Source: Kordiimonadaceae bacterium
GTDB taxonomy: Bacteria; Pseudomonadota; Alphaproteobacteria; Sphingomonadales; Emcibacteraceae
Direction of reading: 5' to 3'
Length of the DNA stretch: 45,422 bases
Assembly: GCA_018675425.1 (NCBI GenBank)
Contig: JABGYD010000025.1
Span: 1-45,422 of the forward strand
Part shown: one piece after another, positions 41,817 through 45,245 of the stretch
Layout: every line of letters begins with the position of its first letter
Position numbering within the stretch: position 1 is the first letter of the stretch
Position numbers and translations under genes: made by a program
Notes under the pieces: generated by a model
Database searches by the model: none
What the model was told of the DNA's origin: nothing
The model's input: the letters and a program-made list of their open reading frames with translations, nothing else

Positions 41817-42968
41817 TTATAACCTACCGTATTTTTTAAAAATTTCTCTCACTTTAGCTACTGGGAGTTCATAAATAGTTTTTGTCTCACCTGTTAGAAC
41901 GTTTTTTGTGGTAACGCTTCTTGCCATCAATAAAGAATTATAAACCGCCTCCTCAGTCGCCTCAGCCACCGCTTGAAAAAGTGGCGAGACGCGGTTATTG
42001 GGTAGCTCTTCTATCTCGCTCTTATTATTTCTCCGCTTTTTAGTACGCCTTACACTCTTGGCAGTCGAAAAGCTTATCACATAATCGCCACTCCCGTTGG
42101 TCATAGCCGACCCCGTTCTAGCTAAACCAGTCAGAGCACGACTTCCTAATCTTTCAAGATTTCGGTCGCTAAGAGGCGCATCGGTAGCGACTACTATCAT
42201 AATCGACCCATCAGCAATGTCACTATCTATATAATCTTTAAGGTAATACTGATTAAGTTCTTCGCCAATAGGGACCCCGTCCATCATAAGTGTGCCACCG
42301 TAGTTGGTCTGAACAAGCACACCCACTGTATAACCCCCGAGTGTGTTAGGAAGTATCCGCGATGACGTTCCTATACCACCCTTCCAGCCAAAGGCACTGG
42401 TTCCCTTGCCCGCGCCAACATCCCCTTCAGAGACCGGCCCACTTTTTGCGCCCTTGATAGCTTCAATAATAATTTCTGAAGTAAGATGCCTGCCCCGAAT
42501 ATCGTTAAGACCAGCATCGTTGGTTTCTCCTACAATAGCATTTACCGAGCGAACCTCTTCATTACCAGACTGCGGCAATACCCAGTCAAGAATAGCATCC
42601 GCAGCACGTGCGACACTTAGAGTGTTTGTAAGCAAAATCGGAGTTTCAATTTCCCCAAGTTCCTTCACTTGTGAATAGCCCATCATTTTACCAAAACCAT
42701 TACCAATGACTACCGCCGCCGGAACTTTATTCTGATAAATATTTTCACCATGCGGGAGAATTGCAGTAGCCCCAGTGCGGACGCTCTTGCCTTCATCTAA
42801 AGTAACATGCCCTACAAGAACACCCTCTACATCGGTAATAGAATTATGTACTCCTGTTTTTAATATCCCTGGTTTAATGCCGAGATCGCGGGCGCGAACC
42901 TGCTCAGCCATTGCGTCAGAAATAAATACAACACATAAAGTTAAAACTACTATTACTTTTTCGAACAT
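41817..42968 (-). CDS. P1-family (DmpA/BapA-type) aminopeptidase, secreted
   Basis: 383 residues with a signal peptide (about 1-21, ending DAMAEQ). The family features are ARDLGIKPGILKTGVHNSITDVEGV, GWKGGIGTSSRI and VGVLVQTNYGG. The autocatalytic cleavage site and N-terminal nucleophile should be G254-S255 in IADGSIMIVVATDAPL, aligning with Ser250 of DmpA. Such enzymes self-process into alpha and beta chains and remove N-terminal residues from beta- or D-containing peptides or amides. Substrate here unknown; periplasmic location inferred. GGAG before ATG. Confidence 0.9.
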   Translation of the reverse strand: MFEKVIVVLTLCVVFISDAMAEQVRARDLGIKPGILKTGVHNSITDVEGVLVGHVTLDEGKSVRTGATAILPHGENIYQNKVPAAVVIGNGFGKMMGYSQVKELGEIETPILLTNTLSVARAADAILDWVLPQSGNEEVRSVNAIVGETNDAGLNDIRGRHLTSEIIIEAIKGAKSGPVSEGDVGAGKGTSAFGWKGGIGTSSRILPNTLGGYTVGVLVQTNYGGTLMMDGVPIGEELNQYYLKDYIDSDIADGSIMIVVATDAPLSDRNLERLGSRALTGLARTGSAMTNGSGDYVISFSTAKSVRRTKKRRNNKSEIEELPNNRVSPLFQAVAEATEEAVYNSLLMARSVTTKNVLTGETKTIYELPVAKVREIFKKYGRL

Positions 42969-43101
42969 TACTCGTAAACTCCTGATTTTAATTTAAGACT
43001 AAAGTTGAATATAATAATGAAACTAAAGCCAAATATTCTAAAATAGAAAAATTATTATAATATCTTTTATATTTCGAGACTATAGCACAAAATAACTATC
43101 T

Positions 43102-43148
43102 TTTGTTTATTTATGATTATATATTCGTCATGTTTATATATAAACAAA
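43102..43148 (+). promoter_or_regulatory. palindromic control site upstream of the Lrp gene
   Basis: TGTTTATATATAAACA (43131-43146) is a perfect 16-bp palindrome, and TTTGTTTA (43102-43109) is inverted again in TAAACAAA (43141-43148). The element lies 30-75 nt before the preferred TTG start, as expected for autoregulation. Confidence 0.5.
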
Positions 43149-43174
43149 CAAATTTTCGTACAAAGGTCAAAATT

Positions 43175-43609
43175 TTGAAATTATCGCAAAGTGAAAAAAA
43201 ACTATTAGATTTACTTAAAATCAATAGTAGAATGAGCGCAGCAGAGCTTGGCCGCAAACTCAACCTAGCACGATCGACTATACATACAATGCTTATCCGC
43301 CTTGAGGAAAAAGTTATTGGTTGTTATACAATCAAACTTAAGGATGCGTCAATTGATAGCGATTCTCGGTGCTATGTGACAATCACTAGGGATCCTAAAA
43401 AATCTGCACAAATTGAAAATGCTCTCTATAATATGGCAGAGGTTGATTGCTTAGCCACTGTTGCGGGACCTATTGATTTCATGGTTCTAGTCCGTACGGA
43501 CAATAATCAAAAAATGGATACGGTGCTTACCAATATTGAAATGATTGATGGTGTAATGAAAACAGAAAGTCATATTATTCTAGTGTCAAAATTCAATAGA
43601 ATGCCATAA
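43175..43609 (+). CDS. Lrp/AsnC-family transcriptional regulator
   Basis: 144 residues from the TTG at 43175, which has AAAGG eight bases upstream; ATGs at 43103 and 43130 would add an unusual AT-rich N-terminus and run through the palindrome. HTH: LSQSEKKLLDLLKINSRMSA, AELGRKLNLARSTIHTMLIR. RAM ligand domain: CYVTITRDPKKSA, AGPIDFMVLVRTDNNQKMD, then VMKTESHIILV. It lies just before, and in the same direction as, the aldehyde dehydrogenase gene, with a phased repeat array between them. It likely controls that gene in response to an amino acid such as lysine or an intermediate, by analogy. Confidence 0.85.
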   Translation: MKLSQSEKKLLDLLKINSRMSAAELGRKLNLARSTIHTMLIRLEEKVIGCYTIKLKDASIDSDSRCYVTITRDPKKSAQIENALYNMAEVDCLATVAGPIDFMVLVRTDNNQKMDTVLTNIEMIDGVMKTESHIILVSKFNRMP

Positions 43610-43626
43610 ATTTTAGTAAAATAACG

Positions 43627-43711
43627 TTTTGATATATTTAAATAATTTTTTGATATATTTAATGTTCAATTAATATTGACTTTTGTTCATAAATACGAAA
43701 TATCGTTCATA
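43627..43711 (+). promoter_or_regulatory. phased direct-repeat array (likely Lrp operator) and promoter of the ALDH gene
   Basis: TTTTGATATATTTAA occurs twice, exactly, at 43627-43641 and 43648-43662 (21 nt apart). GTTCA then occurs at 43664, 43685 and 43705 (21 and 20 nt apart). Two helical turns between copies would place them on one DNA face, as for Lrp/AsnC octamers. TTGACT (43676-43681) with AATATC (43699-43704) at a 17-nt spacing is a candidate promoter inside the array. Confidence 0.6.
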
Positions 43712-43736
43712 TTGATTATTGTGAAGGATTTAAAAT

Positions 43737-45245
43737 ATGATGAATAAAAAAGAAATATATAAAGCTCTCGGCCTCACTGCAAAGGATGTAGAAGGCGGGA
43801 ACCTTGTAGTTCACACGCCAATCGATGGAACTGTGATGGCTAATGTTACCATGGATACAGTCGCTCAAACAGAATTAAAAATTGGCAAATCCGTTGATGC
43901 TTTCAAAATATGGCGTAACGTTCCAGCTCCACGCCGTGGGGAGCTTGTTCGTATTCTCGGTAATATTCTTCGGGACAAAAAAGAAGCCCTTGGTGCACTC
44001 GTAACACTTGAGTGCGGTAAAATTTATCAAGAAGGCCTTGGTGAAGTTCAAGAAATGATTGATATTTGTGATTTTGCAGTTGGCCAAAGCCGCATGCTAC
44101 ACGGCTTGACAATTGTTTCAGAGCGCCCCCTACATAAGATGCGTGAAATTTGGCAACCCCTAGGACCAGTTGGCATCATCAGCGCTTTTAACTTCCCAGT
44201 TGCCGTTTGGTCATGGAATACTGCACTCGCTCTTGTTTGTGGTAACTCCGTTATCTGGAAACCTTCAGAAAAATCACCTGTAACTGCACTAGCTTGTCAA
44301 AAAATATTTGAGATGGCATGCGCTGAATTTGGCGATGATGCGCCCGCAAACCTATCCCAAGTTCTTACAGGTGAGCGTGATATTGGTGAGGTACTTGTTG
44401 CAGACGAACGTATTCCTCTTATTTCTGCCACAGGGAGTAGCGCAATGGGTAAAGTTGTTGGAGCCAAGGTTGCGGGACGTTTTGGAAAATCGATTCTTGA
44501 GCTTGGTGGAAATAACGCCATCATAGTTTCAAAGCATGCTGATCTTGATCTTGCTTACCAAGGTATTGTATTTGGATCAGTTGGAACTTGTGGACAACGT
44601 TGTACTACAACTCGCCGTCTTTTTATCCACGAAGATGTTTATGATGAAATAATTCCACGTATCAAAAAAGCCTTCTCAGGCGTGACTATAGGCAACCCAC
44701 TAGATGAAGAAACACTCATGGGACCGCTTGTTGATGAAGATAGCTTCAACAATATGGAAAATGCCTTAAGTGTCGCTAAAAAGAATGGTGCCTCCATCAC
44801 TGGGGGTGGTCGTGCCATGGCTGATGACTATCCCGGCGGTTACTATGTTAATCCTGCACTTGTTGAAATAGATGGCACAGATGCTAATGTTAAAACGGAA
44901 ACATTTGCTCCGATCCTATATGCTTTTAAATATAATGATCTGGATAATGCTATTTATCGTCAAAATGATGTGCCTCAGGGTTTATCTTCGGCCATCTTCA
45001 CTACTAATATGCTCGAAGCCGAAATTTTCACATCTGAAGTTGGCAGTGACTGCGGTATAGCCAATGTTAATATCGGTACAAGTGGTGCAGAAATTGGTGG
45101 TGCATTTGGTGGTGAAAAAGAAACTGGTGGAGGGCGCGAAAGCGGATCAGATGCTTGGCGCGGCTATATGCGTCGTATGACAAGCACAACAAACTATTCT
45201 ACTAAATTACCCCTAGCACAAGGTATTAAGTTTGACACTGATTAG
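43737..45245 (+). CDS. ALDH7-type aldehyde dehydrogenase (aminoadipate semialdehyde dehydrogenase-like)
   Basis: 502 residues. The catalytic Cys is in GTCGQRCTTTRR (Cys289), the general base Glu in KSILELGGNN (Glu255) and the oxyanion Asn in SAFNFPVAVW (Asn152). The EIWQPLGPVGIISAFNFPVA stretch and FAPILYAFKY resemble ALDH7/AmaB proteins, which oxidise L-2-aminoadipate 6-semialdehyde (or its cyclic form) in lysine and pipecolate breakdown. Ending: GEKETGGGRESGSDAWRGYM. GAAGGA ribosome site before the ATG. The preceding Lrp regulator supports an amino acid catabolic role; substrate remains inferred. Confidence 0.88.
   Translation: MMNKKEIYKALGLTAKDVEGGNLVVHTPIDGTVMANVTMDTVAQTELKIGKSVDAFKIWRNVPAPRRGELVRILGNILRDKKEALGALVTLECGKIYQEGLGEVQEMIDICDFAVGQSRMLHGLTIVSERPLHKMREIWQPLGPVGIISAFNFPVAVWSWNTALALVCGNSVIWKPSEKSPVTALACQKIFEMACAEFGDDAPANLSQVLTGERDIGEVLVADERIPLISATGSSAMGKVVGAKVAGRFGKSILELGGNNAIIVSKHADLDLAYQGIVFGSVGTCGQRCTTTRRLFIHEDVYDEIIPRIKKAFSGVTIGNPLDEETLMGPLVDEDSFNNMENALSVAKKNGASITGGGRAMADDYPGGYYVNPALVEIDGTDANVKTETFAPILYAFKYNDLDNAIYRQNDVPQGLSSAIFTTNMLEAEIFTSEVGSDCGIANVNIGTSGAEIGGAFGGEKETGGGRESGSDAWRGYMRRMTSTTNYSTKLPLAQGIKFDTD

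Follow-up and report, generated by a model that had tools for sequence, protein, structure and literature searches.

A putative Lrp operator of phased GTTCA boxes at the ALDH7 promoter in the Kordiimonadaceae/Emcibacteraceae group

The lrp–ALDH7 junction

In a stretch of 45,422 nt from a marine alphaproteobacterium (Kordiimonadaceae bacterium), analysed as a whole and termed here the window, a gene for an Lrp/AsnC-family regulator (lrp; 43175–43609, plus strand, 144 aa) is followed on the same strand by ALDH7 (43737–45245, 502 aa), and the 127 nt between them are 83% AT. The product of lrp carries the AsnC-type helix-turn-helix and ligand-binding (RAM) domains of Lrp/AsnC regulators (PF01037 at 46.9 bits, cut-off 25; PF13404 at 28.2 bits, cut-off 27; scanned on the reading frame from 43103), and we place its start at a TTG codon at 43175 because this codon aligns with the ATG of orthologues and is preceded by AAAGG. 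Since the protein reached no NCBIfam equivalog cut-off, its subfamily is one without a name; its top PDB matches (7fby and 9w4v, E about 1e-11) are both other Lrp-type proteins, and entries that we take to be structures of mycobacterial LrpA (2w25, 2qz8 and others) match weakly (E about 1e-5). ALDH7 scores 779.2 bits against the NCBIfam equivalog NF050084 (cut-off 730), which identifies it as an L-piperidine-6-carboxylate (P6C) dehydrogenase, an enzyme of lysine and pipecolate breakdown, and a likely ribosome-binding site, AAGGA, lies before it (43724–43728, plus strand). On its other side lrp adjoins a divergent gene for an S58-family peptidase (PF03576; 41817–42968, minus strand), as it does at 11/11 loci of the genus.

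The gap holds two kinds of repeat, both noticed in an earlier note made from the DNA letters, whose description of them proved accurate: two exact 15-bp copies of TTTTGATATATTTAA, 21 nt apart (43627–43641 and 43648–43662), are followed by three copies of GTTCA at 43664, 43685 and 43705, spaced by 21 and 20 nt, and the gene upstream of the array does encode an Lrp/AsnC regulator. A GTTCA triple at 20/21 nt arose in 0/20000 dinucleotide shuffles of the gap, and an exact repeat of at least 15 nt in 0/2000 shuffles of the 127 nt, where the longest measured 14 nt; chance accounts for neither unit, AT-rich as the gap is.

The GTTCA copies form a ladder around a promoter-like arrangement on the plus strand. 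Operator box 1, TGTTCAA (43663–43669), stands upstream of a -35-like element, TTGACT (43676–43681), that is probably also the left half of site 2, TGACTTTTGTTCAT (43677–43690), whose core TGAC-N3-TGTTCA runs from 43677 to 43689; after a 16-nt spacer comes a weak -10-like element, AAATAT (43698–43703), read by eye, and then box 3, TCGTTCAT (43703–43710), expected to lie over the transcription start. The AT-rich stretch at the -10 position is retained in relatives. A consensus promoter scan did not list AAATAT and gave TTGATA/AATATT (43650–43677) instead, the first hexamer of which falls inside the second TTTTGATATATTTAA copy; its three promoter-like sites, against 2.2 in shuffles, are at chance level. 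A terminator scan found none. With a weight matrix built from relatives, the boxes of the window score 13.8, 12.9 and 8.1 bits, and a weak match of 6.7 bits lies on the minus strand of the gap at 43726. By eye, site 2 fits a semipalindromic 15-bp TTG...CAA-like form (TTGACTTTTGTTCAT); an Lrp dimer site would be semipalindromic, whereas boxes 1 and 3 strongly conserve only the GTTCA half and its AT-rich flank. The ladder nonetheless sets several similar sites at integral helical turns, which is the arrangement of a phased multi-site Lrp operator.

Conservation of the ladder and its link to lrp

Genus and family serve here as kinship labels, and the lrp–ALDH7 junction is present in 11 genomes of the genus, the window's own included. 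All three boxes are exact in eight of these and one box is altered in the other three; the boxes follow one another at 21/21 nt in each of the ten relatives, against 21/20 nt in the window. Box 2 reads GTTCA throughout (11/11), box 1 in ten genomes (GTTCT in the eleventh, so that GTTC is invariant) and box 3 in nine (the remaining two have GTTCG and GTACG), and TTGA[CT] stands between boxes 1 and 2 in 11/11. Mean identity over the 55 pairs is 74% across the array, or 56% once the boxes and TTGAY are left out, compared with 42% in the 28 nt before it and 37% in the 48 nt after it. Because the fourfold sites of lrp are near random in the same pairs (37% identical; random expectation 35%), the 74% of the array argues that it is under selection. 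Conservation upstream of orthologues, to which the earlier note had looked for support, extends to the ladder with TTGAY, which is present in 10/10 genus relatives with the gene pair (three with one altered box) and linked to lrp, in favour of a phased Lrp operator; it does not extend to TTTTGATATATTTAA, found at 0/10. In four of the 11 genus members (L002, L006, L008 and L010), an inverted TGAACA-N3-GTCA-like site (0–1 mismatch) also lies between the array and ALDH7, 146–160 nt past the lrp stop, and is perhaps an auxiliary operator; the window, with its shorter leader, has no such site in the array–ALDH7 gap.

The genes themselves go together. Among 32 family genomes, lrp orthologues (at least 61% identity, the next matches reaching at most 38%) occur in 21 of the 24 with ALDH7 (E <= 1e-150) and in none of the eight without, counts that come from related, partly incomplete genomes and are not independent events; five of those eight assemblies are only 53–83% complete, and a truncated ALDH7 could miss the cut-off. 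The orthologue is found in 11/13 genus genomes (own included), where the relatives' proteins are 74–85% identical to that of the window, and in 10/19 other family genomes.

Related sites recur before lrp. TGTTCAT lies 29–30 nt before the gene in 8/9 genus relatives with a readable promoter (G001 has N), and at -72 in the exception, G003; a second site, good in G007 (-72) and a weak near-site in G004, G008, G009, G010 and G012 (-71/-72), gives a spacing of 41–42 nt (four turns) in six relatives. The longer TGAC-N3-TGTTCA (at most one mismatch) occurs within 200 nt before lrp at 8/21 loci, seven times inverted: at 2/11 in the genus and 6/10 elsewhere, against a null mean of 0.23 and a maximum of 2 in 200 resamplings. 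Its recurrence there suggests that the TTGAC preceding box 2 probably doubles as -35 element and operator half-site. In the window, the lrp promoter (43100–43175) has no TGAC-N3-TGTTCA within one mismatch and a best box of 7.4 bits, compared with about 10–13.5 bits in relatives; this lack of a strong box, in a gene that starts with TTG, suggests that lrp autoregulation may have been lost or changed in the window's smaller (2.2 Mb) genome.

Across 60 genomes, the pattern TGTTC-N7,9-TTGAY-N3-TGTTC matched at 19 places (one control hit), 15 of them at the lrp–ALDH7 locus (11 in the genus, four in another genus) and four off it (G006 C355, G008 C21 and C48, G039 C141). Of 385 genomes of the class, among which the window's own was the sole family member, that one alone matched a stricter form of the pattern. 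Only 4/60 genomes matched an early two-box pattern that ended in TATCGTTCA and demanded too much of box 3; all four matches were at the lrp–ALDH7 locus. The single box TTGTTCAT was uninformative in the window's own genome, with 67+68 hits (135) where its reversed control had 65+51 (116).

For ten other family genomes, the anchor was a GTTCA chosen by eye ahead of the catabolic genes, a choice that biases box 1; from this anchor, TTGAC lies at the same distance in 7/10 and GTTC at 20–21 nt in 6/10. Counting against the operator reading, TTGAC is missing from its expected place in G013 and G015, and in G019, where lrp adjoins ALDH7, the anchor box alone is present. The array stands before ALDH7 or, where a TPP enzyme heads the operon, before the gene for the latter (NCBIfam PRK08199 as tested in G030 only; sequence resemblance in G013, G014 and G015). 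In one genus member (L011, genome G008), the lrp–ALDH7 gap contains a small frame in which the end of the L086 TPP enzyme is recognisable (54% identity across 56 aa, E 3e-14) and its beginning weakly so (E 0.009), but not its middle; it is probably a relic of the gene that heads the operon in other genera.

Where a further gene parts lrp from the catabolic genes, it is the latter that the array, or its box 1–TTGAC part, accompanies: G014 and G031 (L080, L087) have a Wzy_C-domain (O-antigen ligase-like) gene between lrp and the array, with two boxes on its catabolic side, and G021, G022 and G024 (L083–L085), where the intervening gene is similar in size to the Wzy_C one, keep box 1 and TTGAC only, likewise with the catabolic genes. 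All of these loci belong to another genus. Of the three ALDH7 genomes with no detected lrp orthologue, G005 is truncated by the contig end, G017 lacks the array, and G029 has ALDH7 with the core TTGACTTATGTTC and no box 1 in register; the lack of an lrp orthologue in the latter (assembly 88% complete) counts against an Lrp reading of the boxes. As far as sequence comparison can tell, the operator–promoter is real and conserved, is seen only in this family among the genomes searched, and is of a known kind.

A candidate operator and its reader

We consider it probable, from the layout, its conservation and its linkage to lrp, that the GTTCA ladder is a pathway-specific operator on the ALDH7 promoter, most likely read by the Lrp/AsnC protein encoded next to it, which would serve as a local repressor of ALDH7, the gene presumed to be under its control. 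Lrp binding, repression, the ligand and wrapping are all what we infer for the ladder. The three sites share the consensus TTGTTCAT, extended to TTGAC-N3-TGTTCAT in the middle one, and would face one side of the helix at two-turn intervals: the first precedes the -35 element, the second falls within the -35/-10 spacer and the third would coincide with the transcription start, so that with a start predicted near 43709 the boxes would begin at about -45, -24 and -4. The adjacent Lrp/AsnC protein would most likely occupy them cooperatively in multimeric form, with a dimer on each site, and, because such a multimer would cover the promoter, repression would follow, RNA polymerase being excluded until an amino acid or intermediate of the pathway alters the assembly. 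In most relatives, Lrp would probably also control lrp itself, through similar, weaker sites.

Such a layout has precedents. In the part of PMC2995911 available to us, which concerns archaeal members, Lrp sites come in clusters, helically aligned, with two or three turns between centres, and it is because this two-turn spacing is on record for Lrp proteins that wrapping of DNA on an Lrp octamer at the ladder is possible. The multi-site operators described there resemble the ladder in having imperfect sites on one face, often with autoregulation; they differ in sequence, in that neither GTTCA nor TGAC-N3-TGTTCA is given in that part of the source. BarR of Sulfolobales, a beta-alanine-responsive Lrp-type regulator, forms octamers for which DNA wrapping has been proposed, and binds semipalindromic sites of 15 bp at regular spacing; TTG opens each of the three Ah-BarR sites, and similar residues lie two helical turns apart in the Sa- and St-BarR sites (PMC10201364, in the portion seen). 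The window shares with that system, so far as the portion describes it, an Lrp gene beside its target and several regularly spaced sites. However, BarR serves an archaeal promoter, divergent genes and another pathway, whereas the genes of the window are co-oriented, and against the semipalindromes of BarR, boxes 1 and 3 conserve well only their GTTCA half. Mycobacterial LrpA, according to earlier work cited in the accessible text of PMC4726150, adjoins the lysine 6-aminotransferase gene (lat) and binds upstream of it; the likeness, on that text, is an Lrp-family regulator beside a lysine-catabolism gene, and the differences are that lat does not encode a P6C dehydrogenase and that the protein is distant from the window's Lrp. 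A literature search, with most subscription journals outside its coverage, found no description of this operator.

The same protein on the same boxes could instead activate ALDH7. Some Lrp proteins activate or are dual, according to the available part of PMC2995911, and box 1, near -45, is at a possible activator position before a weak -10 element. However, a protein bound to box 2, within the -35/-10 spacer, or to box 3, at the expected start, would block the polymerase, and we regard activation as unlikely, though deserving of more weight than the alternatives that follow.

It is rather improbable that the boxes are read by some other regulator (e.g., LexA-, LysR- or CtrA-type), with the Lrp gene merely a neighbour. 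The core site of G029, in a genome with no detected lrp orthologue, speaks for this reading; against it stand the related sites before lrp in relatives, the co-occurrence of lrp and ALDH7, and the confinement of the pattern to one place per genome in most genomes that have it, with no other match in the 385 of the class (a sample with no other family member), which fits a local, family-specific regulator. Alphaproteobacterial LexA sites have the spacing GTTC-N7-GTTC, from which the 21-nt period of the ladder differs, and a LexA-type site was rejected on this ground.

The duplication beside the ladder

A longer tandem repeat of period 21 (43619–43662, no strand assigned; 2.1 copies, 91% match by TRF) has the TTTTGATATATTTAA copies as its core; the GTTCA array is separate from it and lies downstream. 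At distances of 4–60 nt, no other exact direct repeat in the window reaches 14 nt. Among 31 genomes searched (the window's own, 18 from the family, among them all 12 genus relatives, and 12 from the order), TTTTGATATATTTAA occurs twice in the window's own genome, both times here, and once elsewhere, in G041 of the order; it is absent from the 12 genus relatives and thus from all ten genus loci with the gene pair. In the window, 54 nt separate the lrp stop from box 1, against 31 or 34 nt in each of the ten relatives; one duplication of 21 bp explains this difference of 20–23 nt. A weight matrix from the genus relatives finds no box within the copies. On this comparison of loci, the TTTTGATATATTTAA pair is a recent 21-bp duplication of the window's lineage, in the spacer that parts lrp from the operator, outside the recognition sequence. 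That the duplication, being exactly one ladder step (21 bp, two turns), was kept for helical phase and a longer wrapped DNA, read by a family-specific Lrp repressor whose operator half-site is the -35 element (TTGAC-N3-TGTTCAT), is a doubtful idea to which we give little credence.

The earlier note had gone further in joining both units into one operator lattice, a five-step array on a 21-nt period with the DNA wrapped on an Lrp octamer. The two units do stand side by side on that period, but this proposal fails because TTTTGATATATTTAA is missing at the ten other genus loci and does not fit the box motif; the relatives' spacers, too, are shorter by what a tandem duplication would add, and we now think the five-step operator very improbable. 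Hardly credible is a GTTCA triple that is promoter and leader sequence only, with no regulator: TTGAC would indeed make a good -35 element, but a sigma-70 promoter includes no GTTC in its spacer or past the -10 stretch, the motif persists there although synonymous sites are saturated, and no Rfam family reaches its gathering score in 42900–43900.

Phased multi-site Lrp operators are already established as a kind, to which the candidate reported here adds a member, and it was the comparison of relatives that separated this operator from a neighbouring duplication of the same period. Being compact and conserved, the ladder is suited to testing how Lrp proteins make use of sites spaced by two helical turns. 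For the Kordiimonadaceae/Emcibacteraceae group, an uncharacterised Lrp-type regulator would thereby gain a likely target, a likely site and a likely step in a pathway.
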